DNA of 64,000 nt from Branchiostoma floridae (taxonomy: Eukaryota; Chordata; Leptocardii; Amphioxiformes; Branchiostomatidae), in contig NC_049995.1 of NCBI RefSeq assembly GCF_000003815.2, forward strand, positions 16,304,187 to 16,368,186, written 5' to 3'. How positions within the stretch are numbered: the first letter of the stretch is position 1; every line of letters begins with the position of its first letter. A program made the position numbers and the translations under genes. This document shows, piece after piece, positions 12,496 through 63,960 of the stretch. The notes beneath the pieces are model-generated. The model saw only the letters and a program-made list of their open reading frames with translations. It was not told the origin of the DNA and did not search any database.

Positions 12496-12562
<67 letters not shown>

Positions 12563-15616: not shown

Positions 15617-15660
<44 letters not shown>

Positions 15661-16376: not shown

Positions 16377-16427
16377 AGGTCATTAACCTGAAACGCTTTC
16401 TGGTCTTAACCGAAAGGCCATTGACCT
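16377..16427 (+). promoter_or_regulatory. Two further IR-1-like motifs in the 5'-UTR intron of FABP copy 3
   Basis: AGGTCATTAACCT (16377-16389) and AGGCCATTGACCT (16415-16427) repeat the IR-1 pattern seen upstream of the promoter, again with T as the spacer base. Regulatory use is inferred. Confidence 0.4.
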
Positions 16428-16911: not shown

Positions 16912-17040
16912 CAGTTCTAGAGTTAGCTATAGTATACACTTGTTGTCTGATACAAACCATACTGGAGTCAGGACTGGAGTTCTAGAGTTAGCTATAGTAT
17001 ACACTAGTAGTCTGATACAAACCATACTGGAGTCAGGACG
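16912..17040. repeat. 66-bp tandem duplication
   Basis: Two copies of about 61-66 bp (starts at about 16913 and 16979), each with GTTAGCTATAGTATACACT and CTGATACAAACCATACTGG, differing at two or three bases. They lie in the 5'-UTR intron of FABP copy 3. Confidence 0.85.
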
Positions 17041-17090
17041 CACTCAAGTCAAGGTAGGACACTGTCGCTTCTGGGTGTAACGGCCACTAT

Positions 17091-17484
17091 ACACCTTTCT
17101 CACGCGGCGGCCATGATAGATCTAAAACGAGTTCAATGAGGCAAACAAAAGGCTGTCCATCATAATTAGCAGTTCAACTAATGATATCCTGCCAATTAGG
17201 GAAGCGACCAATAAGTGAAGTCCGTCAAATATTTGCATTATTATGTTTTTATTTTGCATCTCTTAAGGGACTATGGGACCAGTCTACACTACTTTAAATT
17301 GCTACATTTTTCGGTGCATAACACTAATTATGATTTTTATTATTCTATCTTATATCATGAAAGTTTGTATGGTTTCGGGGAAAACTAAATGGGACCTGAT
17401 TTTAGAAATAAGTTTTGTCTGTTTGCCTCATTGACCTCGTCTTCGATCTATCATGGCCGCCGCGGCGCCGCGTGAGAAAGGTGT
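17091..17484. mobile_element. MITE with GC-rich inverted termini
   Basis: The left end ACACCTTTCTCACGCGGCGG and the right end CGCGTGAGAAAGGTGT are inverted. The subterminal GGCCATGATAGATC and GATCTATCATGGCC also pair, as do inner GAGGCAAAC and GTTTGCCTC. The right arm has an extra GCGGCGCC. There is no coding capacity. Confidence 0.75.
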
Positions 17485-17499
17485 ATTAAACACAATTCC

Positions 17500-18600
17500 G
17501 GCGGTCACATCTATTAAATTCATCGCCTTGAAAAATATACGTCTGAAGACTAGTATGATCTTGTATCTTAACTGTGTATACGGGGTGAGGGTAGTGGACT
17601 AGAGATCGCTCAAACACAGTCTGTGTTTCAATAAGACTTAAGTTATGTTAGTTTAGGTTATTTATGTAGGAACCTTTTTTTCTGTAAAGATTGAGGCGTT
17701 TTCAACTAGAAAATCCTCAAGAATTCCCCACTATTCAATCGTAATGCACCAGATTATCTATAGTGCTTTAGCCCCAAATCGTCGACACAACAATTACTGA
17801 AAACTGGTTCTTCCACATTCTCCAAAGTAAGTCTGTCAGTCATGACAATCTTTCCCCAATCTCTTTCCGAATGATTACGTCTTTTCAATAGAAAATGGCA
17901 ATTACAGGTTAATTAAGGTGACCGAATGCAAAATACTAACATTACATAGATCTATTACTATTGTCGTGGATGCCATTGTAAGCACGATATATTCGCTATT
18001 CTATACAATTTATATATTGTTAGTCATTATTATCCTTTGTAAAATTCCATGGTAAAAATCTGTTGTCCTTGTCTCTGTCAACAGGGCTAGCCCTTTGTAA
18101 TAGCCACAGGGTATTTGGACAGCCCTGGCTGTGTGCGCTGAACAGCCAAACTGATAAATAATATATTAACAGGTCTATCCATACAATCATTCTAGGCCCT
18201 ACTTAAAACCTATACAATGCAAACAGTCAGTCAATATTGTAGGAGTCTTATGCAAATGTTTAGTTGCCCAGTCGGTCATGGACCTCAAGAGATTTTTTTG
18301 AAAATCACAATCGCCATGACTATTGACAGGAACACACTGTCAATGGTGAAGAACAGTATTCCTATTGACAGGATGTGCTGCAATTTGATTCTTATTGACA
18401 AGAGCATCGTGTCAACTCGCCTCGGCGAATCACAATAACCAAATACTTACTTTAAGAATCATCCCATATTTAGCTCCTTTTAATGTATTTTGATAGAATA
18501 AAAATATAGTTATATAGATTCAGCACATGCGACATTTCTCAAACTCAACTTGAAACATCACAAGATGTTCCTTTCCGTTTTTATGTCATAACGTGACGTC
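17500..18600 (+). other. 5'-UTR intron of FABP copy 3, no gene recognised
   Basis: AT-rich sequence with no supported exon. A short stretch at about 18085-18160 (GGGCTAGCCC, CAGCCCTGGCTGTGTG) resembles another at 19515-19560, suggesting a small repeat family. Confidence 0.5.
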
Positions 18601-27512: not shown

Positions 27513-30500
27513 CTACCGTTTTCCTCCAGGGGGAGCACTTTTGGCCCTGGTCTGCAGTCTGGTCTCAAGCCACTCTTCGTAATCCTCTGTGGGCATCTCA
27601 ATAATCTTCTCTCGAACAAACTGTGAAGAAATAGGTTTTGTGAATACACAAATTTATATCAAAACTGGAGGTTCTGCAGCAATACTTGTAAAGCCACAAG
27701 GGGACCCAATGTCAAACTTGACCTTTGTTTCTAGACTCCAACTCAACTTCAAAGTATCTTAAGGATCCATCCAAAGCTTCATGACATATACTGTAACACA
27801 CCACACTTATCGAAAAGAGGGGTCCTTCCCGGTGTAAGTGGATTAATTAATTCTGTTTGGATATGCAGCTTGTGTACTCTTCATGTACAAACCTGGTGTG
27901 GCTTAGTTTGGTTTACCACCTTTGCAATACAAACAAACAAACCTCTATAGCAGAGCAGATGTCAGGTGCGGGTTAATTATAACAACATGGAGGGGTGTAC
28001 ATGTACCTCTATAGCAGAGCTGATGTCAGGTGAGGTTAATTATAACAACATGGAGGGGTGTACATGTACCTCTATAGCAGAGCTGATGTCAGGTGAGGGT
28101 TAATTATAACAACATGGAGGGGTGTACATGTACCTCTATAGCAGAGCTGATGTCAGGTGCACACAGCTCCCAGGGCCGGAGAGTGGAGAGAACCTTCAGG
28201 AACTGGTGAGGGCTGTACCGTCTGCTGATGCCGTCTAGCTGCACCTGGGCAGGGGAATGCTGGGTTAAGTATCTTATTTCAAGAAGAAGGGGAGACATGA
28301 TCCAGCTGGTAGGTCTTGAAAGAATCCCGCTAGAGTCTTTCTTAACACTTCAAGTTGGAAGCACAACAAGAGATCAGTTTCAAACTCAAGGTCCCAACAG
28401 CTTAAGCGCAGCCAGGAGTCCAGCCTTGTTCACGGGTAGCAACCTTTGAGAGCAAACCAAAGAGAGCAAGGCTGGACTCAAAGCTACCACAGCTTGTGAT
28501 TTGAGCTAAAACTTAACCAAGTTTAAGACCAGATTGTACAGTTACTTGGAGAATGAGAAGTACATCACATGAGAAGTGCAAGAGTGAAGACTATTCTACA
28601 GGCCTCAATGCCTTCCTTTCTGGAGACAGTATTCACTATTTCAAGCAATGAAAGTTGACAGAAGAATATACGACTGTACACTCTGATTTCATAGCTCCTG
28701 GCTTTTCACTTATGTTACAACCAAAAAAGGAGTAAAATAAAAGTAATTTAGTATTCAGTCATTTGTACTTACAATGCCGTATCTGGAGATTTTCTCCAGG
28801 ATGTTGAGGCAGAATCTGTCGTCCCTGATGTTTGGTGGCAGGTTCTCTTGTAGGTCCTTATACCTGTGCAGAAAAGTATGCAGTTATGCATGGTGGAACA
28901 CAGGTATATAGGCTGGGGTAGAAATGTACAATCATGATGACGATACTTCATAAAAAAGCTCAGAACTGAAGTCTTGCACATCCAACAGTTTCATTAGGAA
29001 TATTAGTAAATACTTAACTTATTTTTACAACATCAAAAGTAGCTTCAGTTAGTACTGCCTTGAGGAAGGTACCCAATAGCTGAGAAAAATAATGTTGTAG
29101 GAACATGTATTTTACTTTTGGCTGTTTTAAAAGAACACTCATCGTTCTTGATAAGGTGTCAAGTTAGTACATGTACCAAACAAACAAACCAACCAGACCG
29201 CATGAAAATTCTGTCTGCAAAGGGTTTTGTACCCTTCCTACTCCTTTCTCTCAAAACAAAACAAACAAACAAACAAACAAACCCACCAGGGAGCGTGGAC
29301 CTTCTGTTTCCGCAGAGTTTCGTACTCTTCCTGCTCTCTTCTCTCCTCCTCCTGAACAGCTGTCTTCATCTTGTCCACCGCTCGGAAGAAACTGGTGGGG
29401 TGGCCCAGGGTGCGGAACTTGGTCTCACACTTCTGTTTTCTTTTCCTGAAGGAAGGAAACAGCAAAAAATCAGCTTTCATCATGTCTGTTGTTATGAGTT
29501 AAGAGCTGCAAAGTACAGAACTTGGTTTCATAATGTTTGCTTCCTTTTCCTGATTTCTGATGATGATGATGATGTGCATACCAGTCAGACATCTTACAGA
29601 GACATTAAACCTATAAGTGGTGCCCAAGATGCAAACCAATTGGTATGACACTTCTGTTTTCTTTTCTTGAAGAAGGGAAGAAAAGAATCAATTCCAATTC
29701 TGCCAATTTTATCTGTACCTTTCCACTGTGCAAGGATGTTAAGTCAAATCTGACAGTGGCCTTTCTACCAAGCAATGTTAGATACCCAATCCACCCCAAA
29801 GTTGACAGCACCTCCAAACTGAAGCCATGACTGGCTAGTAAAGTTCAATTTTCCCCAAACCTGTCCAGAGCCTCCAGGTTGTCGTGTAGAGTGAGAGCCT
29901 TCTCGGCAGAAACGTCGGCAAACCTCTGTCTCATCTCCAGCGGCAGGCCTTGCTGTCTCACGCTCGGGAAGTCATGGTAATACTAATAACTTAAGGTAAT
30001 ATCACACGTACCTGTTCAAAGCTTCCAGGTTATCGTGTAGCGTGAGAGCCTTCTCAGCGGAGACGTCGGCAAACCTCTGTCTCATCTCCAAACATTAGGG
30101 AATACTACAACTTCAAAGGTAATATCACACGTACCTGTTCAAAGCTTCCAGGTTATCGTGTAGCGTGAGAGCCTTCTCAGCTGAGACGTCGGCAAACCTC
30201 TGTCTCATCTCCAAACATTAGGGAATACTACAACTTCAAAGGTAATATCACACGTACCTGTCCAGAGCTTCCAGGTTGTCGTGTAGAGTGAGGGCCTTCT
30301 CGGCTGAGACGTCGGCAAACCTCTGTCTCATCTCCAATGGCAGGCCCTGCTGTCTCACACTCGGGAAGTCATGATAATACTAATAACTTAAGGTAATATC
30401 ACACGTACCTGTTCAGAGCTTCCAGGTTGTCGTGTAGAGGCAGTCCTTACTCACTCACTCACTTACTCACTCTATACTTAAAGGTAATATCACACGTACC

Positions 30501-33500
30501 TGTCCAGAGCTTCCAGGTTATCGTGTAGCGTGAGAGCCTTCTCAGCGGAGACGTCGGCAAACCTCTGTCTCATCTCCAATGGTAGGCCTTGCTGTCTCAC
30601 GCTCGGGAAGTCCATGTACAGCGCAAAATACGCAGGAGAGCTGGAAATACACACATTCAATGACTAAAAGATAATACAGTGACTTTACATTTGAAAAACA
30701 ATATGTAGTATATTTCACAGATGAATAAGGACTTATTTACCAACAAGTTTGTAAACAGAGCTTTTATAAAATTTTTGCAGTTAACCTCTGTAATGAATTC
30801 CATTAACACCAAAAGTGTACATCTTTAAGTGAAATGAACGGCCGATGCAGTTCCAAAAGAAGCCACTACTGACAAGGACCAAACCTACAGTACAAGAGCT
30901 ACCTACCACCTCTACATCATGACCATAGCATGTCCAGAACATGAGAAATCGAAAATGGAAGTTCTGCTGCAGTACCATAGAAAGGCATTAGGGGTCCATT
31001 ATTGAACTTGGTAATAAGGAATAAGGAAAACTGTTACTTTAACAATGACTAGGAATTAAGGTTAGAGTGTTGAGACTTTTGTCCAAAACACTGATTTTAA
31101 GACCAGAACGCTGATTTTAAGACCAAAACGCTGATTTTAAGACAAGTTACTAGTACATGATTATACAATGTAGATGTACCTAAGCGGTCTGGCAGGCATG
31201 CTCTTGCTGGAGGATGTGGAGGGGGTTCCCCGGAGCCTGTAGTCAGCCAGCTGCGACCGGACCTCGTCTGTAGGGGATTGCTGGGGACGGAAGTTCAAGG
31301 AACTTTACCAAAAGTGCCCCCCGATAGGCAATTCGTACAAAACTTGAACCAAAGTGAGCACTATTTGAATAAACCTTAAATCATAGTAAAAATGTCAATT
31401 GATATAATATTACACTTAATAAACCAGTAACATACCTATTGCTTTGATGGTAGAACTTTGGAGAATGTGTTACAGTACAAGATATTAGATAATGTACTAC
31501 TAATGTGCATAATGCTGGTGACTGTTAAGACTCAAATCTGTTCACAAACATTTTAAACTCATATGTGCACAGTATGTGAAGACAGATGTGCAAAATAAAC
31601 ACATTATCTAACTGTTCGCACAAAATTGTGAAGACATGTTTCTGTGGTACACATACATGTACAATGTACATTAGACTTACTGATATTCAAGTCCTCAATG
31701 TTAGGACAGCTGTTCAGAGATGCAACAAGGAAAATTAGACAAACCAAATTGATTTGTAATAGTAAGAAGATTCAAGAAAGCATCATTCCAGATTCAGTGG
31801 CCACAAAACGTCACTCAGAGCTTCTTAATCATGAACTCATTCAAAAGTAAATATCAAAATGAAAGTATTCTAATTTTCCCAGACTTACGTTTCGAGTGGA
31901 GCCCGGCATGCCGTAAGCACGAGACTGTTTCCTGAGTGCCATCATCGCTCGCGCCCCCCTCCCCACCGTCTGCATCGACAACGCTCTGTGGAGGACATAA
32001 CAGTCATTTCTAAACACATCCAAAGAAGTGGCGGAGAGTTACTGTAATACCTGTCCAAAAGCAAAAGTTAAAGTTGCCCTTGCATCTGTAACAGATGGGT
32101 GATGCCTATCTCTATTTCTGTAGCCCTTGGGCCACACATCTGTGCAAGTCACTACAGCAGGGGGCTATAGTCTGCTGGTTATGATGTGTGTTTAACTCCC
32201 ATACTCTTTCTTATAAGTGCTGTGTGCTAAGCAGAAAAAGCAGCATGTACCATTTTTAAAGTCTTTGGAATGACTTGGCTGGGGTCTGACCTTCATCAGC
32301 ACTTTCACTCTCAATCTCCTTACCTGTCCACGGCCCTTGGAGTGTTGATGGTGATGGTGGGCGTCTCACGTTCCGCACTGCCGGGTCTCAGGTCGCCATC
32401 TTGGGCCAGTCCTTCCTCCGCTTCCTTCTGTAGGTCTGCACTGATGTCTGACAGGAACTTCAGAAGGGCTGCGGAAATAGAAAAAAAATTCAACAAAAAG
32501 ATTAACACGTTTGTTAACACTAGTTCACCTTTATCCGCTAGGTAACCTATATCCGTTGTTTTTAAAAACATGGATTTTAGGGATACCAAGTTGATGGAAA
32601 GAGGTTTTTCAAACTGCAATATTGGGAATATATTACAATTTGAAACCATAAACTGTTCGTCGACTTGGTATCCCTACGTAGTACCCTGTCAAGTTTTCTG
32701 TGACCTTCATTCCTTCATTATGACCTTGATACCTCCTTCCCCTTGTATGGAATTTAACATTTCAGTACTCTGATGCCTTAAACCTCTTTAACCACCACCT
32801 AGAACAAGGACGTAGTTAGCTAAGGGCACAACCCACCGTACGTGCAAATACGTTCTGTCTATGTGCCAAAACGTGGGCAATCTTTTGGGATCCGTAAGTG
32901 ATAAGTACCGCTTCCGTACGAACTCCGGGAATCCGACGGATTTTGAAGAAACAGACACACCGTAGAACTTTAAGTGCAGGCAAAACTTTGTGTGTCATCG
33001 GGCAGTGGTTCAGAAATACGTGGCGGACGTGGTCTAAAAAAAAGGTATGGACTAATTGCACGTACGGCGCCCTTACATTAGCTTCCCACAATTATTTGAA
33101 AGACATCCAAATATTAGTGATGACTGAGGAGGTTCTGAACACCTAGTGTGCTGCTGAGGTTAGTCTCCAAGCAGACCCTACGGTGCCTTAGAGATAGCAT
33201 CAAAGCTGGCCAAGGAGTATAGCCGGCACCGGCGCCCGTTTGACTCCCTTTGGCCGGCTATCTCTCTTTGGCCGGCTATACACATCTAAGGACATGTTTA
33301 ACTTTCCCACAATTATTTGACAGACGTCCAATTATCACCAGGTTCGTTAGTGATGACGGAGGAGGTTTTGAACACCTAGTGTGCTGCTGAGTTGTTCCTC
33401 GCACTTACTGCTGTCCCTTTTTGCCCTACTGTACTTTCTACTGGTCCTTCTATTGGTAGATGTTCTCCTCTGGGCTGGAAAGGGAAATGCTAGGACGTTT

Positions 33501-36500: not shown

Positions 36501-39500
36501 CATATGTATAAGGGTAAGCTCATCAATATCTATAAGCAGGGCAGTCAGGAACTAAGGGTGACGGTTGAGAAAACAGGGTACATCCAGACAGACGGTTTCG
36601 CCATTGGATGTTCCTGCATAGGAGGATGACAACAGTTCACACAGCATTTTGCCTTACTTGAGGTCCCAGCATGAGGAAATGGGCATCATGACACTCGGTC
36701 CCTCCAGCGACATGGACTCCAGCAGCCAGTTCAGCGCACACAGCTGACGGAAAAAACTCTCCCTGCAACAAGAAGAAAATTGGGTTAAGACAATACGACC
36801 ATTGACTTGTTACTGACAGCATAAATTGTCATGTGCATTAAGCAAATAGCCAATAACATCCACTATGATCATAATTCCACCAGGTGCCATGATACCGCCA
36901 CCTCAAAAAACGTTAGTATAGAGGTCTTCCCAAGATTGTCTTGAACACCGAATGTTAAATATCCTATATGTAATACAATTCAGATATTTAGGTGTTCAGA
37001 AGACAATCTTGGGAAAGCCTCTATTACAACGTTTTTTTGAGGTGGCAGTATAATGGCACCTGGTGGAATTATGCGAATGTATGTTATCTATCCTTGAAAT
37101 ATTTTCTGTGTTTTTCTTTTGTGAAGTTGAACATATCTTTACTGTCTTTGATGCATTGACTTTCTAATTGGGCAGTTAGATCAAATAAGAATTACCTTTT
37201 TTGTAACTTATGCTGGCAAATTAACTGTTACAAATTGTTGATGACAGTATAAGATGATACTGGAACTGTACTAAATGAAGTCTAAAATAGTTTGCTTTTC
37301 AAGCTGCATTTTTTACAAACTGACATAACCGCTAATAACATGGACAATAGAAGTCAATCATTTTGATAAGACTGACATTGTACTCCACATTACTATGTTG
37401 AATATATGACATAATCATAATCATACTCCAAGCCCCTAACACCCCCAATAGTAGAGTGGTATGTTCTTACAGTTCATTTGGTGTTGCCGGTTGGGCAGCG
37501 TTAATGTTGGAATAACAGGGGGTGAAGGGTCGGGGAGGGGCGCTGTGCGGTCCCTTCTTCTTCTTGGTGCTGACGGCAGAACGTGTGCGAACGGAGGGCG
37601 CAAACTCGGACTGGGCAGCCAGGTCTATTGTTCTGTATAGGAAAGGGAAAGAAGGAAAATTATGAGCAATTTAGTCAATACATAGCAAAATCTAGATGTT
37701 ACTCGCCCTATCATTCACTGTTGCTTTAGCTAACAGTGTCTTGTTCTTGTTCTATCATATGTTGAACAAACTGTTGTCTACAATCATGCCTTGCAATCAA
37801 CGTAAAAAGACAGCATACTTCTTTTAGAATATTCTACAAAATGGTGATAACTTTACATGTTGAAGACAAATGACAATAGTAACTACATTGTACACAATGT
37901 AGTAACAGAGTCAGACTTAGTTGTGACTTCTACATTTCTTTACAGTTCTTTCTTTTAAACTATACCATGTGCTAATATGGTGCCTACCCTGCATGGCTGG
38001 TAGCAGCACTTTTTGTCCTCGCACTACTCCCCTCGGGAACTTCTGTTTGGAAAAACCTGGGAAAGGGACAACACACAGAAACTTGGATTAATCGAACTGA
38101 AATACATGAAACTGGGAAAAGGGTTTCTTGAGAAAGACAAATAAAGTCGAAACCGGTCGAATTTCGGAGTATCAGTCGTCATCGTTCCATACCTTATTGA
38201 TATATGTGAAAGGGCTAAGCTTTGAAAAAACATCTGATCCTAAGGGAGGGTCTTTTTAGCGAATGCCCACAAACGCCCACTCTAGAGAAGTCCGCGCTCC
38301 ACGAATCTCATTTTTTTGGCTTGGAATATGTCCACGTTGTGCTCCCATGTATTAATCCTGAGTTTCAAGTCAATCCATTGACCCGGAGTGACATAAATCA
38401 AAGTTTCGATTCTCGATGGTCTTTTTAGCGAACGCCCAGCAAAATGTCTTTTTAGCGAATGCCCACTATATCCACAAAAATATAGGCCGTCGCGCAACGA
38501 CACCTAAACCTACCACCACAAACATGTTCAAGATGGTGTCCCATTAATGTGTACGGAGTTTCCGTGCTTTACAAGCATTTTAAGTCCCTGTTTTTGGTCA
38601 AAATGTACGGCGACGATACTACCATACTTTACTATAGCAATTCAAAATGGCGGGCACTAGTCATGTGACCTTCTTGCGGGACTGTTCTATAAGTATCGCG
38701 GGAGGGACTGTTGTAGCATAGCTTCTCATACAACCATTTTAGAGTGAATTCTGAACAAGATTTTCATTTCATAGTGCTATCATCTGACTGATATTGACAA
38801 TGTGGTCATTTTTTCTGTGCTATTATTACCCAGGTTTGAGGAACTTAGTGCAAATATGGATATTGATTCACCTCAGTGCCCAATTAATGTACAAAAGGCT
38901 CAGACACATTAGTGTTATAAACCTGAATAGGGGCAGGTAACCAATACTAGAAAAACATAGCTATTTATTATTAACAATACTATTTACATTATGATAATAA
39001 CTCTTCACCAAACTGGACTTTTGTTATCTTTATTTATCACAGAAACATTGTTACAATGAGGATTTGATTAGATGAGTATCTGTTACAGTGTGTACAAACT
39101 TATTATATTTCAGCCATACATAGTATGGTGAAATATATTGTATTCGTAATGTTTCTTTCTTTCTTTCTTTCTTTCTTTCTCCTGTCAAATCTTCAAAGTG
39201 ATTCATCTCCGCCGTTCCTGGACCGAATGACCTGAAATTTGGCACAGGGGTAGAATGGGCCAATACCTTGATGCTTTTTTCTCAGTTTTTTCATATCTGC
39301 CTCTAAAATGATTTTATTGAGATTTTTTGGTCAATTTTAGACCAAACCTGTATATTTTGGCCCCTGTACCCTGGTATTACAACCAAATGAGCTGAAATTT
39401 GACAGAGATGTGCCTTGATAATGCCCCCATATAAATTCAATAACACTTTTGGTGTACAGTACAACAAAATGCTTATTTTTGCGATTTTTTGACCAATTTT

Positions 39501-42500
39501 TGACCAAAAAAGGACACTTTTGGCTCCTGTACCTTGATATTGCAACCGAATGAGCTGAAATTTGACACAGATGTGCCTTGATAATCCCTTCATATAAATT
39601 CAATAACACCTTTGGTGTACAGTGCAACAAAATGCTTATTTTTGCGATTTTTGGCCAATTTTTGACCAAAAAAGGACACTTTTGGCTCCTGTACCCTGGC
39701 ATTACAATTAAATGACCTGAAATTTGGTATAGATAGGCATTAGATACTTGGTAACAAGATTCAAGTAAAATTTTTGACATAAACAACTTTAAAATGATTA
39801 ATTTTGGCACTTTTCTGAGGGGAAATTTGTTTCTTTTGGCCTCCTGACGTGACCTTCCGTGACCCCGCACAGAGCCACACCTGTGCGCGTCAGCCGGAGA
39901 GTTAATTGAATCGAAGACCTAGCCAATCAGCGAAGAGGAGGCCAAAGGCTAATTAATATTCATAAGCGGGGCCTCATGATCCCGTATATAGCAGTGTTCC
40001 CGCCAGGGGGAGCGAAGCCCGCCTAAGGCTCTCGCATTTTAGACTATTCAGAAGGACTTATATTGTATCAGTTCTTAGGGGCATATCTATGATAATCGCA
40101 GCAGTCACTTAACTTCTCTTCAGGAGTTTAGCGTAACACTATTTCAGGTCAAACCGTCAAAGGCAACTAAAAACAAACTATAACGTTACTGAGTTCAACA
40201 GTACTTATAACTTGTTATCCGAAGTTGAAACGCTAGCGATGGTATTTTCGTTGCGCTGTTAGCTCCGTGCGACTGTTGTTGACGGTCTTATAACGGTATA
40301 TTTTGCACCCCTGTACCCTGGTATGAGTAACATTTGGTATAGATAGGCATAAGATAGTTGGTAAAATGATCCAAGTAAAATTTTTGGCATAAAGTACTGT
40401 AAAAGGCTTAATTACAGCACTTTTTTTAGGGGAAATTGGTTTTCTTTCGTTCTCCATGCCATGACCTTTCGGACGTTCACCCCACAGAACCGACATCTGC
40501 ACCTGCGTCTAGCCGGCAGGAAGAGTTAATTCAATTAATGGTTCAGCCAATCAGCGAAGAGGAAAGCGAAGGCTAATTAATATTCATAAGCGGGACCACA
40601 CAATACGTTAACTTGAAGACTCAGGACGTACAGACTTCTCGCCAGGATTTTTTCAAAGCGTCGGACAGGGGTCCGGGGTCCGCCGAATGTCCCTGGCGGG
40701 GTCCAGGGGCAGGGCCACTGTGGGGGGGGGGGGGGGACCCAGGTGGGCGAAGCCCCCCAGGAAGCTCTTGCATTTTAGACTATTGAGAAGGCTTCTTTTA
40801 TCAGTTTTTTTAGGGCCATATCTACGATAATCGTAGCAGTCACTTACTTCTCTTCAGCAGTTTGACTTTAAAATATTTCAGGTCAAAGCTTCAAAGACAA
40901 CTAAAACCTCATAAACAACAAACTTTACTTAGCTCAACAGTATACAAAAATATTGTACGGGTTGCCATCCTTAGTTGAAGCGCTTATTTATAGCGCTAGT
41001 ATCTTCGCTGCGCCGTTAGCCGCCGTGCGACTTTTGTTGACGGTCTGATATCCCTACGTCGCCGCCTCGCTGATATTCCCACGGACATGTTTCAAGAAAA
41101 ATACCCAGCAAAAAACGCTGTTCTGCGTCAAATTCTATTCTATAAAACATGTGGGACTCAGTGTTACAGTCTAAATATTTTGTAGAAGCACCGCTGTAGG
41201 AAAGAAGGTCCAAGCAATGTAAAACATCACGTAGCATGAAGTTCGCTGTCAACTGGCACACAGCACATGACTGTTTGAAACTCTAAGTCTAATCAACAGC
41301 CGTGTTTGATTGATAGCCGGCGGTCCTTTGATGAAGTCGGCGAAAGGTGCGTTAGTTAGAAAATCTGCGTTTAGTTTTGATACGTAATTATAAGTTATAC
41401 AGTGGCGAGAATGATTATTTTCTCATCAATATTTCTCTTCAGAATTATTTGAACTTAATTGTACATCTAAACAATTGGCTTACCTGTGCAATGTTTATAT
41501 GATTAATGATCAGTGTACTGAAATCATGTGTAACGTATGGCTCCTAGTCAATAGATCAGCATTTTCTCTATAGTGACCACCTGTCTATAGTGGCCACATT
41601 TCCTAGTGCTGTTGTTGTTTGACATAAACTTTGAACATTTAAATTGTAAGTAACTTTAAACTGCCAGAGTTTCAGCCCAATAAAACACTCTCAGCGCCAG
41701 GGTATGAACAGACTGACCAGACAGACGAAAATAAATCCTCGAACAAGGTTCAATCGTATCTTCCGGGTCTGGCAGGAAGTTGTTAAACTAAAATAAGAAT
41801 AGGCTCGATGGCTGATTGCATACAAAGTAAAACAGTTGAACAGTTTTACAGCTTGAAGAAAACAAACGCTCCTACAGTACCTACGCACCTGCTTGATAAT
41901 TATTAAATCGTATGCCCTACTTGAATAAAAAAAGTTCACTGCAATAATAAATGTACCCACATCACAAGGAGCTTATACTTTTTTAAACTTACACCTAGTT
42001 ATCGTACTGAAAATTGTTAATGACATTACATGAAGTCATTCAACAATTTTCAGTCATGATGAAAATTTTCTGAATGGAAGGTGTGATTATTGTCATTTTC
42101 TGAAAAATAGAAGCAAGCTCTGTTTTTACCTGGAATCAATTCACAATACCACTCCACTTTGGGGGATAATGTACTGTTAAGAGGATGTTCCATTTTTGCG
42201 CAGGGGTGATTTGGAACAGTCCAATGTTGCGTGGGAAGGGGTATGGCTGAAATATGCTGTATTTGCTCTTAAGCAAATGTCGGCCTTTCTAGTTTCAAAT
42301 ACAAAAATGTATTTCGTTTCACTTCCTAAATATTTTAAAAGTATTGGAAGAAGCAAGGAGTTGACACATAAACAATATTAATTGCATTATTTATGTGCAG
42401 TAAAATGTGACCACATGCTATCAATAGCCTAATAAAATGTTGGAACATGGCACAAGCGGGCTCCTCTTCTGAGTACAGAAAGGAAATGTTTTATAACATT

Positions 42501-45500
42501 TAGTTATGACGTAGAAAATTTCAATTGTAAAATGTACCTTTATTAACATTTACAAACAAATTGTTTTTTTCTCTTCTTAATAAATGACAACAATACAGGT
42601 AAGTAAGGTGTGTTTCCTTTTATAACAGGCCAGGTAAGACGCCGTACAGGTAAGTAAGGTGTGTTTTCTTTTATAGCAGACCAGGTAAGACACCTTACAG
42701 GTGAGTAAGGTGTGTTTCCTTGACTACAGACTAGGTAAGACACCTTACAGGTGAGCAACGTGTATTTCCTTTCATTACAGACCAGGTAAGACACCGTACA
42801 GGTGAGTAACGTGTATTTCCTTTGATTACAGACCAGGTAAGACACCGTACAGGTGAGTAAGGTGTGTTTCCTTGACTACAGACTAGGTAAGACACCGTAC
42901 AGGTGAGTAACGTGTATTTCCTTTGATTACAGACCAGGTAAGACACCATACAGGTGAGTAAGGTGTGTTTCCTTTTATAACAGACTAGGTAAGACACCGT
43001 ATAGGTAAGTAACGTGTATTTCCTTTCAGTACAGACTAGGTAAGACACCGTACAGGTGAGTAAGGTGTGTTTCTTTTATAACAGAATAGGTAAGACACCG
43101 TACATGTGAATAACGTGTATTTCCTTTGATTACAGACCAGGTAAGACACCGTACAGGTGAGTAACGTGTATTTCCTTTGATAACAGGCCAGGTAAGACAC
43201 CATACAGGTAAGTAAGGTGTGTTTCTTTTTATAACAGACCAGGTATGACACCGTGCATGTGAATAACGTGTATTTCCTTTGATTACAGACCAGGTAAGAC
43301 ACCGTACAGGTGAGTAAGGTGTGTTTCCTTGACTACAGACTAGGTAAGACACCTTACAGGTGAGCAACGTGTATTTCCTTTCATTACAGACCAGGTAAGA
43401 CACCGTACAGGTGAGTAACGTGTATTTCCTTTGATTACAGACCAGGTAAGACAGCGTACATGTGAGTAAGGTGTGTTTCCTTGACTACAGACTAGGTAAG
43501 ACACCGTACAGGTGAGTAACGTGTATTTCCTTTGATTACAGACCAGGTAAGACACCATACAGGTGAGTAAGGTGTGTTTCCTTTTATAACAGACTAGGTA
43601 AGACACCGTACAGGTAAGTAACGTGTATTTCCTTTCAGTACAGACCAGGTAAGACACCGTACAGGTAAGTAACGTGTATTTCCTTTGATAACAGGCCAGG
43701 TAAGACACCATACAGGTAAGTAAGGTGTGTTTCTTTTTATAACAGACCAGGTATGACACCGTGCATGTGAGTAACGTGTATTTCCTTTGATTACAGACCA
43801 GGTAAGACACCATACAGGTGAGTAACGTGTATTTCCTTTCATTACAGACTAGGTAAGACACCGCACAGGTGAGTAAGGTGTGTTTCCTTTGTCTATAGAC
43901 CAGATAGGGTATTACACAGGTGAGTAAGGCGTCTTTCCTTTGCCTATATACCATATAGGCCATTATACAGGTGAGTGAGGCGTCTTTCCTTTGCCTATAG
44001 ACCAGATAGGGTATTATGCAGGTGAGTAAAGCAACTTTCCTTTGCCTGTAGACCAGGAAGGGTATTATACAGGTAAGTTAGGTGTCTTTCCTTCGCCTAT
44101 ATACCAGATGGGGCATTATACAGGTAATTAAGGTGTCTTTCCCTTGCCTATATACCAGATAGGCCATTATACAGGTGAATAAGGTGTCTTTCCTTTGCCT
44201 ATAGACCAGATAAGCCATTAAACAGGTGAGTAAGGTGTCTTTCCTTTGCCTATAGACCAGATAGGCCATTATACAGGTAAGTAAGATGTCTTTACTTTGC
44301 CTATAGACCAGACAGGGTATTATACAGGTGAGTAAAGCGTCTTTCCTTTGCCTATAGACCAGATAGGTATTAAACAGGTGAGTAAAGCAACTTACTTACC
44401 TGTATAATGCCCTATCTGGTCTAAAGGCAAAGGAAAGACGCCTTACTCATCTGTGCGGTGTCTTACCTGGTCTGTAATCAAAGGAAATACACGTTACTCA
44501 CCTGTACGGTGTCTTACCTGGTCTGTTATAAAAGGAAACGTACCTTACTTACCTGTATGGTGTCTTACCTGGCCTGTTATCAAAGGAAATACACGTTACT
44601 CACCTGTATGTTGTCTTACCTGGTCTGTAATCAAAGGAAATACACGTTACTCACCTGTACGGTGTCTTACCTAGTCTGTAGTCAAGGAAACACACCTTAC
44701 TCACCTGTACGGTGTCTTACCTGGTCTGTAATCAAAGGAAATACACGTTACTCACCTGTACGGTGTCTTACCTGGTCTGTAATGAAAGGAAATACACGTT
44801 GCTCACCTGTAAGGTGTCTTACCTAGTCTGTAGTCAAGGAAACACACCTTACTCACCTGTACGGTGTCTTACCTGGTCTGCTATAAAAGGAAACACACCT
44901 TACTTACCTGTACGGTGTCTTACCTGGCCTGTTATAAAAGGAAACACACCTTACTTACCTGTATTGTTGTCATTTATTAAGAAGAGAAAAAAACAATTTG
45001 TTTGTAAATGTTAATAAAGGTACATTTTACAATTGAAATTTTCTACGTCATAACTAAATGTTATAAAACATTTCCTTTCTGTACTCAGAAGAGGAGCCCG
45101 CTTGTGCCATGTTCCAACATTTTATTAGGCTATTGATAGCATGTGGTCACATTTTACTGCACATAAATAATGCAATTAATATTGTTTATGTGTCAACTTC
45201 TTCCAATACTTTTAAAATATTTAGGAAGTGAAACGAAATACATTTTTGTATTTGAAATAAGTTTGTACACACTGTAACAGATAATTACTCATCTAATCAA
45301 ATCCTCATTGTAACAATGTTTCTGTGATAAATAAAGATAAGAAAAGTCCAGTTTGGTGAAGAGTTATTATTATAATGTAAATAGTATTGTTAATAATAAA
45401 TAGCTATGTTTTTCTAGTATTGGTTACCTGCCCCTATTCAGGTTTATAACACTAATGTGTCTGAGCCTTTTGTACATTAATTGGGCACTGAGGTGAATCA

Positions 45501-48500
45501 ATATCCAAATTTGCACTAAGTTCCTCAAACCTGGGTAATAATAGCACAGAAAAAATGACCACATTGTCAATATCAGTCAGATGATAGCACTATGAAATGA
45601 AAATCTTGTTCAGAATTCACTCTAAAATGGTTGTATGAGAAGCTATGCTACAACAGTCCCTCCCGCGATACTTATAAAACAGTCCCGCAAGAAGGTCACA
45701 TGACTAGTGCCCGCCATTTTGAATTGCTATAGTTAAAGTATGGTAGTATCGTCGCCGTACATTTTGACCAAAAACAGGGACTTAAAATGCTTGTAAAGCA
45801 CGGATACTCCGTACACATCAATGGGACACCATCTTGAACATGTTTGTGGCGGTAGGTTTAGGTGTCGTTGCGCGACGGCCTATATTTTTGTGGATATAGT
45901 GGGCATTCGCTAAAAAGACATTTTGCTGGGCGTTCGCTAAAAAGACCATCGAGAATCGAAAACTTTGATTCATGTCACTTCGGGTCAATGGATTGACTTG
46001 AAACTCAGGATTAATACATGGGAGCACAACGTGGACATATTCCAAGCAAAAAAAATGAGATTCGTGCAGCGCGGACTTCTCTAGAGTGGGCGTTTGTGGG
46101 CATTCGCTAAAAAGACCATGCGTGATCCTAATACACAATGTTTATGTTTTGATTTCAGTCATTCTGTATTAAATCCGCTGGCCTTCCAACTGAAACTATC
46201 TTTTTTTGTAGTAAAGTAGATGTTAACGCACTTAAGAAAACTTACAGTCAACAACAAAACCTTAAGACATTCACACCACTTGTAATTGCAACGTTAATTG
46301 GCTTGGCATTAGCTATAGGGTATGCATACTTTTGTAATGTTAACTGTAACGGGGGCCGCCCTAAGACGGTCCCGGTCGTAAGACGGAACGGATTATTTGC
46401 TGATCTTATTATCCATAAGTACACCGTGTTTGTTGTCACTGACTATGCTGATTACAAAGGTAAATAAACCAAGTCCATGCACACAGCTTTAATTTGCATT
46501 CCAAGTATACTTTAACATATTTACTTCATGTTTAAAAAAAAAACAGAATTCTAACAGTAATGTTGACAGTGCTGAATCACTGCGGTCACCGGCCTCTGCG
46601 TATTGGCGGCTCGTGTCGCTAACTATACGAACTTTTTCAAGCAGTCACACAACTGAAATGATACACATAAATAAAGCTCCATAAAACACTATGAATATGG
46701 GTCTTCAAATGTCTGTTGAGTAGAAAAGCAACCAAAAGGAAGTGACATAAACATTGCCACCATTGTACTCCCAAGGGAGTGTGACCGTGAAGGTGACAGA
46801 CTAGAGAACGCTCCAAAGATTTATTTGACTGTAACAAATGATTCGTACTGTCTATGAAAATAAGACTTGATAGAGAGATGTAGATGATATTTTCATATAA
46901 TCAGACCGAGTTTTGTTGATGTTAGCGGTGTCTTTTTTTCGTAATGGTTTTTTTTAGTCGGGCATTCACAATCAGTGCATTCAGCCCATTGCCCGTAAAA
47001 ACATGAGCTGGATTGTTCTAGGTACATCCTTCCTCATGTGAGACAAGAAGTACATACAGTCACGATTTTACTGTCAAAAGAAAGCTGAAATATCATATTA
47101 TTAATTTTTTTCTGTGTACTTAAATTTACCTCTTACTTCTGAAGAGAGCAAAATGTAAATAAAAGCGTACCGAGTTAGGCACACTGTCCAGCGTAGAACA
47201 AAATTGAAAGGTTACATACACGAAATTGTCTCACAGTGTTTGCCGCTTGTAACATGCAGCGCGAAAGGTTCATGAACCACATGAATGCATTTCTTATTCA
47301 AGTATGTTGTTCAAATCTATGTGTAAAAAATTCAGTCATCAAAAATTTGACCACTCTCAGGCAACTAGCGATGGAGCGCCATGAGTTTGAGCGCAAGAAA
47401 AAGCGTACCGTGTTGGGGCACCTCCCGTTATGTAAACTTTCTTCCAAGCACTTTAAGAATTTTACTAAATGAACTCTCATGCAGCATGCGGATAGCAGCA
47501 ATTAGTTCCTACTATAGTGCAAAAATTGTGCACGCTTTTATTATAGACAGAAAGTGTCTTGCCGAATTTCAAACCAATCAAATTATGTTTATTTTAACGT
47601 TAAATCTGTGAATGCTAAGTATCTTTAAAAAACATCCAAGCACTATTAGAATGTTCCCAGATAAATTCCCATGATTAGAAGTTGTTAAAGCAATTCCTAC
47701 ACAACCATTACGGAGAAGATGTCAGAAGTTACGTCAAACCAAGCTGATTAATGTTCACATTAATTACAGTTAACGATGAGATCGGCCTACATCTATGTCC
47801 TTGGACCCTATAAATTACACCATAATTAGTTTAGACTTTGGAACTTTTCATTGCTAATGTGGTCCCCGCCTAACAACAGGCTTTCACCCAATGCAGGTTG
47901 CTCAGTGGTAACATTGTAATGAGTTTCTCTCTGAATATTTATATTACTAGGTAATGGCAGTGTTTTAGTCAGCCTTATTTTTTTTCCGTCCCCTGGATTT
48001 TTAACTTGGAAATGCTGTTGGGCTGTCTCCAGAAAGCAGCATGTGCCATTTTTAAAGGTCTGTGGTATGACTCGGCCGGGGATCGAACTCACGACCTACT
48101 GAATGCAAGGAGAACACTGTATACAGCTTGGCAATTGTACCGGTTATAACTTTACTTAAAGAAAAACAGTTTATTGCAAATTCTAATTGACCGAGGGCTA
48201 ATTGTAAGTGACAAAAAATGACAGACAAATAATGGTAAACAGTATAGTTCAAGCAACTACTCTTGACTTCGTTTAGTCTAACTCAAAGATGTAACTTAGT
48301 TGGTTTGACTTTTTTTCCTCAGAGACAGTGGAAGACAAAAGATTGCACCTTTTCTATAATGTGTAGGTTTTGTGACATTAAAAGGAGAGTAGTTTTCTTT
48401 TTGTCTGTAAACGTGGAGATACATGTATTAGGATAGAGTTTGGTGGCTTCTTTAAAGAGCTTGTTTCTCTTTTGATCATAGAAGGGGCAGTTTGACATAA

Positions 48501-51500
48501 GATGTGTTTCGTCTTCTACCATCATAACGCACAGTATTTACAACTTCTTTCCCACACAGGTAACACAATAATTTAGTATCTTAAGTCTGACTGTAAACAT
48601 TACTTATTATAATAAGAAGCCCCTTAAAGTCTTACTTTCCCAAGTCCTCATCCTTTGACAAGTCGTCATCAGACTCATCATCATCATCCGAGGATCCGGC
48701 TGCAGGCGGTTGCCATGACGATAGTTTCTCCATCTCCTGCCTGCGGCTTTGCTCCGCCTGGGCGTCTTCATGAGCCGCCTCCTCATCGTTCATCAACCAG
48801 AACAGGCCTTTTCCCAGCCGGACGGACTGGATTAGAGACCTGGGGATTATATCACAAGGATTATAGCAGATTGGATTAAGGACTTAAAAGGGATTTCCAC
48901 AAAGATAAGTTTGAATTCTAGACAAAGAGATCATCTTTGGGCATCTTCGCAACCTGCCTCCTCATCGTCCATCAGTCGGAACAGACCCTTCCCCAGCCGA
49001 ACAGACTGGATTAAGGACCTAGGGATTATCAGATGGATTAGAATAGATTGGGTTAAGGACCTAAGGGATTACCACAAAGATCAGTTCAAATTCTAGACAT
49101 AGAGATCATCTCAGAGATTAGTCCTCGTGAGCTGTCTCTTCATCATTCATCAGTCGGAACAGACCTTTCCCCAACCGGACGGACTGGATTAGAGACCTAG
49201 GGATTATCATATGCAGAGATTAGGTCAGATTCAGGACATAGATCCAGAGATCATCTCAGAGATCAGGTCAAATCCAGGAAACACAGTCCTCATGAGACCG
49301 TGAACAGACCCTTCCCCAACCGGACAGACTGGATCAGGGACCTAGGGATTATATCACAATGATTATAGCAGATTGGATTAAGGACTTAAGGGATTTCCAC
49401 AAAGATTAGCTTGAATTCTAGACATAGAGATCATCTTTGGGCATCTTCACGAGCTGCCTCCTTATCGTCCATCAGTCGGAACAGACCCTTCCCCAGCCGA
49501 ACGGACTGGATTAAGGACCTAGGGATTATCACATGGATTAGAATAGATTGGGTTAAGGACCTAAGGGATTACCACAAAGATCAGTTCAAATTCTAGACAT
49601 AGAGATCATCTCAGAGATTAGTCCTCGTGAGCTGTCTCTTCATCATTCATCAGTCGGAACAGACCTTTCCTCAGTCGGACGGACTGGATTAGGGACCTAG
49701 GGATTAGAACAGGGATTAGAACAGACTGGATTAAGGACCTTAAGTGATCTTCATAGACAGCCAGGAAACTTATAACCTCTTTTTCCAGAGGCAGGGTCAC
49801 TAACCACAGGACCACGCAAGCTACTGCATCAAAGATCTAAGGCTGTATCAAAGTCTACCACAAAGACTCTTAAGAATTGCCAGTATTGACAAGTTCTGGG
49901 ACCAAAATGAGACAGGTAGATGCTAGGAGAAAATGAGAAAAACATGTCTTACCTCTGTTTCTTGAACTGACTGTTGAGTGTGTTCAGCTCCTTTTTCTGT
50001 TTCCTCAGCACAAACTGGGCAGCAGTCTAAAGTGAAGACAAAGAAACTTGAATGTGCTTGCCAATGGATATCAATAATACAAACCACTGCTCTAACATTA
50101 TATAAAACATGTATTTTCTATTACATCACTTTGACAATGTTTAGTAGCTTAACAACATTGCTAAGCTACTAAACATCTATTTCAAATTGATGTTATACTT
50201 AGTAATATTCAGTCATACCTCTCACCCATACCACTTAATAAAACAACTTCTGTCCCCTATTCCTTGCTCTAGCATTCATAAAAGTTAAGCATGGGGGAAT
50301 AAGCATAGATGATATTCCTCCTCCCAACTATAAACGTCAGTGAAAAGATATCGATAACAATAATTATCATAAACTCCAAAACCTCAGGTAGAACTCTTGG
50401 GATATCCTGTCCTGCCATGTTGATGTCCATGTCACACACTAAGCTTAAAGATCTCATTCTGATATACGATCCACAGTGTAGCCTCTTATGCCGGATATGT
50501 CTTATAGGATTTCCCAGGTGAAGAGCAGACCTGGTGCTTCAGTGTGTAACACCATGCAGAAGGGCTGGATTAAGATGGAACTGGGGGATATGATAGCATG
50601 TAGAACAAATAATATTACTTCAGTGCTTCAGTGTGTAAGACCATGAAGAAGGAGGGGATTACGATGGAACTGGGGGATATGATAGCATCGCTCTGTGAAA
50701 CAAAATTTCTTGGCCCTTCCGAACAGCCCAACCTTGTTTTCCCCAATGTTATTCAAGAGATGAAATAAAATGCATCGCTATGTGGATCAAATTAGTATCA
50801 CATCCCTTGAACACCCCTTCCCCAACCTCACCTTTATTTTATCCCCCCCATTGGCATTGGTAAGAAAACTACGGGAGCTAAGGAAGCTCCCAATGAACAG
50901 GACAAATTGGAGAGAGATGAACTTAAAGAAATTAAAGACTGATTACAGCTGCAGGGTGTCCAGACCACTGCAGCAGCAGAACACAGTGGACTAGCAACTT
51001 CTCTGCTGCTGCAGCAGCTGTTCCTCGGCATCCTTTACCAGCTGCTGATCAACAAACAAACAAACAAACAAACAAACACTCCGTACCCTTCTCTGCTGCT
51101 GTTGCAGTTGTTCCTCTGCATCCTTCACCAGCTGCTGTTCCCTCTCCTCCTCTTCCTCCCTCCTCTTGTCTGCCAATGCTCGGTCAACAGCCTCTTGCTG
51201 GAATTAGAAGTATAAATTTTAAGCCTTTCTGATAAAATGGACACTGTACAACATAGCGATACTTTCTAAATTTGAAGACTACGTTGTAAATTCTAACCTT
51301 AAAAATTCAGGAGACTCCCTTCTTAGCCTGGGTGAAAATTCTTATAATTTTACTTATTGGGGAGAAGCAGTAACTAAAGAATTAGCATCCAGGCTACTTC
51401 CTTTCAACCAATAGCAACAAAAAATTGGATTGGTTACCAAAGAAATTTGATTTAGTTTAAGACACATAGAAAGTGTCTTCATCCATACATTCTGTACTCA

Positions 51501-54500: not shown

Positions 54501-57500
54501 AAGTTTGGACTTTTTTGTCAAACCTTTGAACATGGATGTCAGGTTTTAACCCGCTCGTCCACCAAAAAATATCTGACTTCATGACATGAAACTGATAAAA
54601 ATGTATTTTTGCAAGCCTCGAATGACAAATTTAACAACAAAACGGCTTCCAAACAATGTGTAAGACAGAAAAACACATCTCAGTTGAAGACAGCCTTGAT
54701 TTGAAATCCTTTTCAACAATTCAAGTACCACTCAGGACAAGATGTTGGCGTCCCACGGGAAAGTTTGTATAAAGTTTGTAAACCATTTGCGGTGTCACCT
54801 GATTAAATACAGCAGAGCTTTTACATCGGAAGTACCTTCCGTTGGGCGCTAAAGCGAGCACTTCAACCTCGCCCGGCTACACTTCCATTTGTCGCTCCGC
54901 GCTATTGGGCAAACATTTGTGCAGGAACTTTGCTCTGTTTGGAAAACATGCCTCTCGGTTTGACTCGTAGCCAGGAGATTTGTGTATGTGTGCGGGGGCT
55001 TAGAGTGTGTGTGGAAGGACTTACGAAGCATGGCATAAGATTTCAAATATTTTCACATCCTGTAGTACCTTTGTTGCTTACGATTCTTCTTAAAAAGTTC
55101 TACTACTACCTCTAGTAGTAGTCCTGTCAGGAAATCTATACAGACTAGGACAAAGTACTGTGCAATAAAAATATATTTTATAATGTGCAGAAAAACTGTT
55201 CAAAAGATCGAAAACATGGCTCAAATCAAATGCTCAATAAACAGTTCAGAGTTCATTATAATTAAAAACAGAGAATCATTCACTGATGAAAGACGGTGGA
55301 ATCAGATGCTATACTATCTGAAACTTCTGACAATTCAAGAATTTATCCAGTCCCTTTATCTATATTGTTGTATTATGTATGGAAATGAACGTTTTGTGTT
55401 GTTCCAATGCAATGAAAAACATAACTATGGCGACAGTGCTTTGTAGGCCATGCAGGGCTGTTACACTAATCTCATGTTTTCTAGCCATTATTTACCTAGT
55501 ATAGATTTCTACACTAACTTTGACTACTGTTCACCAGTGGGGATTTATCATGTAATCCCCCATCTTTACATGCTTGTTAAGTTTTGTCAACATGGTCACC
55601 ATATCCCCCACCATAACAATCACAATTCTTCACACTTTTTCCACAGAGATTTGTCCAGAAAATTGGGGTTACAAAACAGATCCCACGGCCACCGTGTCAG
55701 CGTGTCCGGAATCCGTGCGACCGGTTGCGCAGGTTGTTTTGGATTTAGCGGTAATTTGATCAAGGTTTACGTGAGCGAGGTCATAGCCACCTGTATAGCG
55801 TACTTGTAAGGGGGTTACAAAGGCAGGGGAAGGCATGGTCCAAGTCACGTAGATTCAACAGACTGTGTTTCAAAACCCTTTTCTTGGTGAGCTAACACCA
55901 GTAGCAGACTGCATTCTGTATGGATACTGTAATGCTGAAGTGGTTATTGAAATAGAAACAGACTAAGTAAAAGGCATTAAAACGTGAAAATGGACACAGA
56001 TTTTTTACACAGAAGAAAAAGTATTCTACACTTTTGACTGCAAACACCGTACTAGTAATGTGTATATTTTCAGCCACATATTTTTACTTGTCATAAAAAT
56101 TAAATTGCTGAGAATATTCGTCTTGATTTTACAGGATGTTGTACACTACACTTTTGACTGCAAACACCTTCTTGCATTTTTTCAAGGTGTTTTTCAACCA
56201 TATCTTTAACCTGCCATACTAACTAAGTTCCTAGGAATATCTAACGTCTTAGTAACTTTCACGTCAAAGTTTTAAAAGAACACTGTTTCTCTTGATTAAA
56301 CCTTGCTTACAGTAGTCCGCCCAACACCCGGCCGCAGTTACACTAATATACACTTACAATGTAAGTTACAGCCCCAGACAGCAGAGTTTGTGTTACACAG
56401 ACTGTTTCTCTGTAAAAGCCCAGAAAGTGTGGCTAATTCAGTTTCTCTCTCCCTTTTTTCCAAGCCAAATGAGTTGGAGGTAATTTACACCAGGTGGTCA
56501 CAGAAGACAATTTACCTGCAGGTATAATTACAGGTGTGTGGATGTAGTGGCGTTCCAGGGGGTAGGAGTTAGGGATAATTGCGGAAAGCTGTCGGATGGA
56601 TCGTTTCTTACATCTGACGGTTCAAGCTTTGCTAGTTTATATGGTACAGCAGTTAATAGTAATGATTATAGATACTGGATAGATACTTATAGATGATAAT
56701 AGATACTGGATAGTTTTAAAGAACACTTGCAACTAGATGTGCATTTTAGGTTAGGTGCGACAGGTTGTTCAGTGCAATATAACCAGCTGCTGCCACGCCT
56801 TGTGCCTGTAAAGCTGGAGTGTTACGCCAAAGGGCGGTTATACCAGCTATATAGACACAGAATTTACAGATTATCTTGTGCACAGTGTGATCATTGTTTC
56901 AACATGTCTTCATCAATCACTTGCTGTACATATTCTCTACTGTCCAACCTGTCCATGGTGATCAATCCAGAAAATAATTGGAGTGGACAGGTGGTCACTT
57001 TATATTAGAGTCCTTTAGACAGGATTCAAAATGATTGGGTCCATCGGGAAAAAATAACTTACAGAGGGACCATAAAAAAATGACCAGATGTTGACCTATA
57101 CTTATAATGCAAAGCTGGTCACCAGGGCAGACTGACTGTATTTCTACTTTTTTTAGTAAAGTTAGGCCACACCAATTTAATTTCTTGGTTCACGGATTTT
57201 TTCATAAAAAATATGGAGCGAGAGGGCGAAATAAAAACTAGAAAGGCAGCATTTTCGTGAAAATGCGTAATGTTTCCCGGTGGTTTTAACAATCAGTAGT
57301 TGACCGCTAAATTTTCATTGTAGCAACTTTTTGATTTCGCGAATCCACCCCCGTCACCCCCCTCCCTCTTAGCCGCTCCCTCTTACCGTGGCACTGATTA
57401 CAGTAGTGTGGTACGTTCACAAGCAAGCTCTGTTTCTTTACAAAAAAATGCAGAACAAAAAAGTGAGAAATGCGGGTTTTGATGTTGTAGTCGCAAGACA

Positions 57501-62869: not shown

Positions 62870-63960
62870 CATTTTTACCGAACTAAAAGCCTCATCGACA
62901 TTAAACTAAACATAGAAGTTTGTCCAAACTCATTTCAAGTGTACTATAATGTCAACGCGTCGTACTTCAAGTGACAAATTTAACAGACAGCAAGGCGTAA
63001 TAACGTCAGAGTGCCATAAAGTTGACATATGCGGTCATATGGAAGCCAGAGCGGGTTTCAACCATTTTAATCGCATTAATAGCTTCATCGACAATAAACT
63101 AAACATACAACTTCAACCAAACTCTTTTCAATTACACCGGTGTGTCTACGCCACGTACTCAAAGTGACAAATTTAACAGACATTAATGCGTAATGACGTC
63201 AGGGTACCATAAAGTTGACAAGGAAATTATGGCGGGTTTTCCACTGTTTTGACCTAATTGAAAGGGTCACTGACAATAAAGTAAACATACAACTTCGACT
63301 AAACTCTTTCCATTTACACCGGTGTGTTGACGCTACGTACTCAAAGTGACAAAATTAACAGACATCAATGCGTAATGACGTCAGTGTACCATAAAGTTGA
63401 CAAGGAAATCATGGCGGGTTTTGTTTTGACCTAACTGAAAGGGTCATTGACAATAAAGCAAACATACAACTTGGACCGAACTCTTTTAGATTACACCAGT
63501 GTGTCTACGCTACGTACTCAAAGTGACGTCAGGGTACAATAAAGTTGACATATGCGCTCAGAAGGAAGTCAGGGCGGCTTTTCCACTGTTTTGACCTAGT
63601 TCATAAAGCCATAGACAATAAACTAAACATACAACTTCGACCAAACTCTTTTTCATCACACCGGTGTGTCTACGCTACGTACTCAAAGTGACAAATTTAA
63701 CAGACATCAATACGTAATGACGTCAGGGCACCATAAAGTTGACAAGGAAATCATGGCGGGTTTTCCACTGTTTTGACCTAATTGAAAGGGTCATTGACAA
63801 TAAAGCAAACATACAACTTGGACCGAACTCTTTTAGATTACACCAGTGTGTCTACGCCACGTACTCAAAGTGACAAATTTAACAGACATCAATGCGTAAT
63901 GACGTCAGGGTACCATAAAGTTGACATATGCGCTCAGAAGGAGGTCAATACAGTGGAAAG
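62870..63960. repeat. ~180-bp satellite, about six units, each with a CRE-type site
   Basis: The marker ACAATAAACTAAACATACAA (variants) recurs at about 63091, 63272, 63450, 63614 and 63796, a period of 164-182 bp. TGACGTCA lies at 63194, 63376, 63534, 63718 and 63900, with TAACGTCA at 63001. The array may continue beyond 63960. No gene lies in it. Confidence 0.9.

Follow-up and report, generated by a model that had tools for sequence, protein, structure and literature searches.

A 64-kb stretch of the genome of the amphioxus Branchiostoma floridae (hereafter the window; G000:C17:16304187-16368186) carries, at bases 38244-46122, a single copy of a foldback transposon with the 9-bp duplication TGATCCTAA on either side. 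The copy belongs to a family of mobile, inserted elements found in the 513-Mb genome searched. Taking the evidence together, we think it likely that the element is a non-autonomous foldback transposon of the cut-and-paste type, that a transposase of the Mutator-like element (MULE) kind serves it, that its palindrome derives from a gene-carrying element, and that its arms recombine.

A foldback element with unlike tips

The duplicated 9-mer occurs three times overall in the window, and the chance of two fixed 9-base edges matching is about 5e-6. Inside the duplications, the arms align at 98.0% over 862 columns (38249-39104 versus 45256-46117) and at 94.2% over a further 875 columns (42293-43164 versus 44392-45257); they measure 862+293 bp and lead into arrays of a 51-bp unit that meet head to head (Table 1). 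The motif GGTCTTTTTAGCGAATGCCCAC is present six times at up to three mismatches, three times per end, and not once in 100 shuffles. The copy thus has the very long inverted arms with internal repeats by which foldback structure is recognised. The first five bases inside the duplications, GGGAG on the left (tag A) and, reading inward, CGCAT on the right (tag B), are not inverted copies of each other. No transposase frame was found in the window copy. The first-pass annotation of this DNA had proposed a foldback transposon with a 9-bp target duplication, and had pointed to identical 9-mers at both edges, arms mirrored over more than 1.1 kb, repeated terminal motifs, an inverted tandem array at the centre and the lack of a transposase frame; all of these points stand.

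A family of inserted elements

Scoring of 40 of the 350 candidates from a search with 38244-38520 returned the window copy and 39 others at 97-98%. The motif GTCTTTTTAGCGAAYGCCCA has 730 exact matches in the genome and none in a reversed control; exact ends number 112 (A) and 114 (B) genome-wide, with none in controls. The first 100 A ends and the first 100 B ends were paired when convergent and within 20 kb, in a listing that leaves out C19, the small contigs and late C18. This yielded at least 81 pairs (44 B-A and 37 A-B; the "listed pairs" below), with no A-A or B-B pair among the matches listed, so that each listed pair has one GGGAG and one CGCAT tip. Another 38 listed ends were unpaired, some of them accounted for by partners outside the matches listed. 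The listed pairs have a median length of 4104 bp (range 1139-18181).

Duplications were scored in 21 elements: 20 fetched loci (L009-L028), with two nested readings of L012 counted once, and the window copy. An exact 9-bp duplication flanks 14 of them, and near-duplications are seen in L009 (10 bp), L027 (one mismatch) and L018 (7 of 9 bases matching). The plan of outer arm A, inner arm B and array, followed by array, B and A in reverse, recurs in 18 of the 21, the exceptions being the short L016, L028 (with 4544 N inside) and the gene-carrying L018. Element L020 lies inside a tandem repeat of about 400 bp, and the uninterrupted target is found in six stretches of the same locus, as exact GTACTAGTC in one and altered in the others. 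For L012 there are two related empty sites, one exact (L042) and one with a change, at window 56706-56861. The empty sites for these two elements give direct evidence of insertion. The first-pass annotation had advised looking for copies with duplications of their own, which are seen here, and for an empty site in another haplotype; the empty sites given here are related sites within the one genome.

At L012 (G000:C221) itself, a pair of right ends share almost identical flanks and are separated by runs of N; this is a duplicated or mis-assembled insertion. Six places with a single motif (L029-L034) are older relatives, with arm matches of 84-88% and other interiors. An array of 198-201 bp lies just inside the terminal repeat in two of them (L030, 368-884; L031, 333-901); capture of arrays may recur.

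The window copy is the fifth longest among the listed pairs, and its 7.9 kb are due in part to a 3.2-kb insert (39105-42292) that splits the left arm only. The epithet "giant", applied in the first-pass annotation, therefore does not describe the copy before this insertion and is not borne out by the median above. The uninterrupted right arm (A', B') displays the state before this insertion, ACTTATTTCAAATAC, versus ACTTATT...CTAGTTTCAAATAC in the left arm. Helitrons have a 3' hairpin followed by CTRR, insert between A and T, and begin with TC at the 5' end. In the insert, a terminal hairpin precedes CTAG and the flanking bases are A and T, but the 5' end reads TTATAT; we term it Helitron-like because the 3' end and the site fit but the 5' TC is missing.

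Probable exchange between arms and inversion of the interior

The two arms were compared in the 15 elements with usable arms (L011, L016, L018, L022, L024 and L028 were left out). They differ at 0, 1, 1, 3, 8, 9, 11, 11, 11, 13, 13, 13, 13, 15 and 16 of about 1149 sites, a mean divergence of 0.80% within elements versus 1.25-1.42% between elements. Substitutions private to one element are found in both arms in 34 cases and in one arm in 95 (4 and 9, respectively, in the window copy); by our estimate, independent mutation would place almost none in both. Older arm-specific markers persist in many copies, so a move does not always reset the arms. The pattern at the centre has 45 exact matches in the genome, 37 within the listed pairs and 8 not. 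Relative to the tips, 28 of these 37 testable copies are oriented as in the window and 9 are inverted. The A side is the longer in the 28 normal copies (median 2294 versus 1705) and the B side in the flipped ones (median 2159 versus 1616; longer in 8 of the 9), a switch that inversion of the whole interior predicts. These patterns suggest conversion from arm to arm and inversion of the interior, which crossing-over between inverted arms would flip. The tips are never alike because the tags sit at the edge of homology, beyond the reach of internal conversion or inversion. Therefore, the unlike tips of all 81 listed pairs are not in themselves proof that the transposase requires one tip of each kind, although such a requirement is possible.

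Flips and two-arm private changes might instead be artefacts of assembling near-identical arms, the transposon being real but static. We hold this to be unlikely, yet it deserves weight, since near-identical arms (98% over about 1.15 kb) are difficult to position and runs of N interrupt several copies. Random joins, however, would flip half of the copies, and under them the chance of seeing at most 9 flips in 37 is P = 0.0013. The switch of the longer half in 8 of the 9 flipped copies and the survival of arm-specific markers in many copies also speak against artefacts. Assembly error may explain some of the flips but is less likely to explain all.

Central arrays

The arrays are rich in the splice-like motif CAGGTRAGT, with 27 copies on the left array's + strand and 10 on the right array's - strand, against a single one in the other 61,630 bases of the window, both strands counted. 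The arrays of 16 elements, which exclude L011 and L015, were cut into 601 complete units. Class a precedes class b on the A side, and class a is followed by a single b on the B side; L022 is the mirror case and L012 shows some mixing. Each side has 2 to 25 units of class a. The donor GT and the acceptor AG are kept in 98.8% and 98.6% of the 417 class a units, and in 81.5% and 63.0% of the 184 class b units. The centre is alike in 15 of 18 elements; L011 and L022 have it inverted, and that of L015 differs. The idea that the element is an introner, splicing itself out, was dropped, the splice-like sites beginning more than 1.1 kb inside the ends.

A gene-carrying relative and the search for a transposase

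One member, L018 (C16:4845340-4856518), is 11.2 kb long and has an inverted repeat of only 189 bp (99.5%). Its B end leads into unique DNA, whereas its A end consists of A, B and some 10 array units. Open frames in the interior match zf-AD (E 3e-7). They also match DUF6589, once over the cut-off (E 4e-7) and twice under it (0.17 and 1.6e-4); the DUF6589 pieces reach model position 296 of 410, ending where the array begins. Judging from this one relative and the shared centre, palindromes probably arose when, past the 189-bp repeat, a copy of the A-side end replaced the B-side end. The gene may be a broken transposase or captured DNA. A PDB search with one DUF6589 piece gave nothing below E 0.5, an NCBIfam search gave 0 families, and no literature on DUF6589 was found.

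If the L018 gene were the true transposase in broken form, the family would fall in a group defined by DUF6589 and not among MULEs. The gene does lie between an A and a B end, its 487-amino-acid exon has 33 genome matches, several with stops, as a mobile gene might, and no MULE gene lies within pairs among the matches listed. Nevertheless, we regard this as improbable: the gene is present in one of the 81 listed pairs, its domain stops short at the array, and an 89%-identical copy of the exon on C10 (L045) has no arm within 5.5 kb downstream. Moreover, no catalytic core came to light, and the gene may be captured DNA. Bolder, and more doubtful still, is the conjecture that the zf-AD/DUF6589 protein, as a candidate novel type of transposase, moves the family and needs both GGGAG and CGCAT, its non-autonomous offspring being self-renewing palindromes that copy and flip their arms but keep their tips unlike, with a central array of ready-made splice sites on both strands.

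The first-pass annotation had suggested kinship with Mutator and a search for an autonomous partner. A genome search with PF10551 (MULE) found 27 places, none of which lies inside pairs among the matches listed, and none of the nine loci read (L035-L043) has family ends; no partner thus came to light. L040 was rejected in this role, the nearest B end being 3.6 kb off and facing away; its frames are, in our reading, broken like those of an intron-bearing gene. One of the nine, L037 (C9:6718000-6724500; element 837-4839), encodes FLYWCH and MULE domains in one frame of 583 amino acids; it has sub-repeats in its long inverted ends, a 9-bp duplication (GTGTGTAGC) and unlike 7-base tips, GGAAGCA and GAATGTC. 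Its transposase as query gave 84 matches; a 99%-identical match of L037 is located on C19. Like the window family, L037 combines a 9-bp duplication with sub-repeated long inverted ends and with unlike short tips preceding a repeat that starts with GG; it differs in carrying a transposase frame and in its unrelated end sequence. A MULE-type enzyme is favoured because L037 shares the end anatomy, though with other sequence. The family also has the duplication characteristic of Phantom-type MULEs (8-11 bp, usually 9). As no PF10551 match lies inside a listed pair, we file the family as MULE-like and not as a member: the suggested kinship fits by end anatomy and duplication length but not by a linked gene.

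Relation to known elements

The comparisons in this section extend to the accessible text of the papers cited. The closest plan is that of Tm1, a Mutator/Foldback family of Meloidogyne root-knot nematodes, with 9-bp duplications, composite inverted ends containing tandem repeats, mostly non-autonomous copies, and short, unlike, non-inverted tips, as a rule one of each per element (PMC3169594); one A2/A2 element without a duplication is described (PMC3169594). Unlike short tips outside the inverted repeats likewise characterise all 81 listed pairs. Tm1 has a copy with a Phantom-type transposase, 7-bp tips, end repeats of 13-15 bp and arms averaging 93% alike (PMC3169594); compared by plan, the amphioxus family differs in its 5-bp tips, longer, near-identical arms and mirrored central 51-bp array. 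Tetris of Drosophila virilis has arms of up to 1.7 kb, in which a flanking domain is followed by tandem repeats, and 8-10 bp duplications, with no autonomous partner found (PMC4079207); it differs in its 220-bp repeats and separate middle domain, and the text seen mentions neither inverted interiors nor unlike tips (PMC4079207). Rehavkus shares the 9-bp duplication and a minisatellite adjoining the terminal repeat, and has terminal repeats of 26-400 bp and a transposase with a PHD finger (PMC6446971); no PHD-finger transposase turned up in the present family, although no search was aimed at one. Our literature search, which did not extend to Repbase or most subscription papers, found no amphioxus foldback element. 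The first-pass remark that such elements are little described is half right, Tm1 sharing the plan down to the unlike, non-inverted tips.

Amphioxus "mirages" are also composed of short tandem units with AG/GT splice signals, but those units span real host-gene exon borders (PMC3087553, PMC3902484). By contrast, the 51-bp units sit inside a transposon and, with splice consensus present, have no source exon that we could find. A local inverted duplication with minisatellite growth, which the exon-border-like units of the centre might recall by analogy with mirages (PMC3087553), has practically no chance of being correct: the empty sites refute it, and the constant ends and 9-bp duplications, which like the empty sites recur at unlinked places, also speak against it.

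Layout and surroundings of the window copy

Table 1. Parts of the foldback element, in window coordinates.
Feature	Positions	Strand	Basis
Target-site duplication TGATCCTAA, left	38235..38243		9-mer match; 9-bp pattern in 14 of 21 elements
Tip tag A, GGGAG, outside the inverted repeat	38244..38248	+	One A and one B tip per listed pair
Outer arm A	38249..39104	+	Arm alignment; motifs at 38249-38270, 38418-38439, 38445-38466
Left-arm-only insert with Helitron-like 3' end	39105..42292		Uninterrupted right arm as empty site
Inner arm B	42293..42593	+	Arm alignment and plan comparison
51-bp array, ~35 units: 25 of class a followed by 10 of class b	42594..44380	+	Splice-like donor and acceptor on + strand
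Centre junction, commoner orientation relative to tips	44381..44402	+	Centre-pattern comparison
Opposing 51-bp array, ~11 units	44403..44963	-	Repeat and unit analysis
Inner arm B'	44964..45257	-	Arm alignment and plan comparison
Outer arm A'	45256..46117	-	Arm alignment; motifs at 45899-45920, 45926-45947, 46096-46117
Tip tag B, CGCAT inward	46118..46122	-	Tip comparison, listed pairs
Target-site duplication TGATCCTAA, right	46123..46131		9-mer match

The element probably lies within an intron of a minus-strand gene, as the first-pass annotation had it, because PF15769 (DUF4698) has weak, collinear matches on either side of it, each falling short of the curated cut-off: 48635-48883(-), covering model 1-47 at E 3e-4, and 30493-30663(-), covering model 321-351 at E 0.003. 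Six other host frames were searched and gave no DUF4698 match. Near the second of these DUF4698-like exons, a 123-bp unit repeated 2.8 times (29993-30337, - strand) appears to copy a coding piece and the splice donor of that exon in the manner of a mirage; 178-bp tandem repeats (48760-49213 and 49302-49748) adjoin and overlap the other. Open frames at 1-4200 (+) match reverse transcriptase (RVT_1, E 7e-8) and, weakly and under the cut-off, phage integrase (E 1e-4); by their parts they are those of a putative DIRS/Ngaro-like retroelement. Minisatellites of 182 bp and 56 bp are found elsewhere in the window (63085-63527, 63562-63926; 14592-15222).

Discussion

In the account that we favour, the element is a foldback DNA transposon of the cut-and-paste type, non-autonomous, whose transposase, most likely a Mutator-type (MULE/Phantom) enzyme, would come from elsewhere and recognise the repeated GTCTTTTTAGCGAAYGCCCA motifs near both tips. 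Insertion and the 9 bp are observed; the 9-bp staggered cut would be the work of this presumed enzyme, once bound. The palindrome probably had a single origin, in which a copy of the A, B and array end of a longer element with a gene replaced that element's other end. Later, to judge from the sequence patterns, the inverted arms would recombine within elements, conversion keeping them alike and crossing-over turning the interior between fixed tips, which would escape exchange, homology ending at the tags.

Several findings weigh against this account. The main doubt is that flips and two-arm changes could in part be assembly artefacts. Four of the 21 elements have no duplication (L010, which is without the A tag; L011; L016; and L024, which has TGCAT instead of CGCAT), and that of L018 is only partial. 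No transposase gene is linked to family ends, and the only gene-carrying relative seen has a truncated gene. Within the arrays there is no homogenisation from arm to arm: right-array units resemble their own left array no better than those of other elements (0.9569 versus 0.9576, n 207), and 2 of 157 private unit variants occur in both arrays.

Among foldback elements, unlike tips, repetitive ends and 9-bp duplications were already known. New here are the mirrored splice-like array, sequence patterns that suggest conversion and inversion within a family of dozens of copies, and a plausible candidate for the parent form. A 2019 survey, in its accessible text, reports no MULE transposase found for B. 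floridae (PMC6446971), in contrast to the open MULE frames found here. The family suggests a route from an ordinary to a foldback element, by copying of one end over the other. Dozens of near-identical palindromes with unlike tips and arm markers also form a natural set for measuring conversion and inversion across inverted repeats at unlinked places within one genome.

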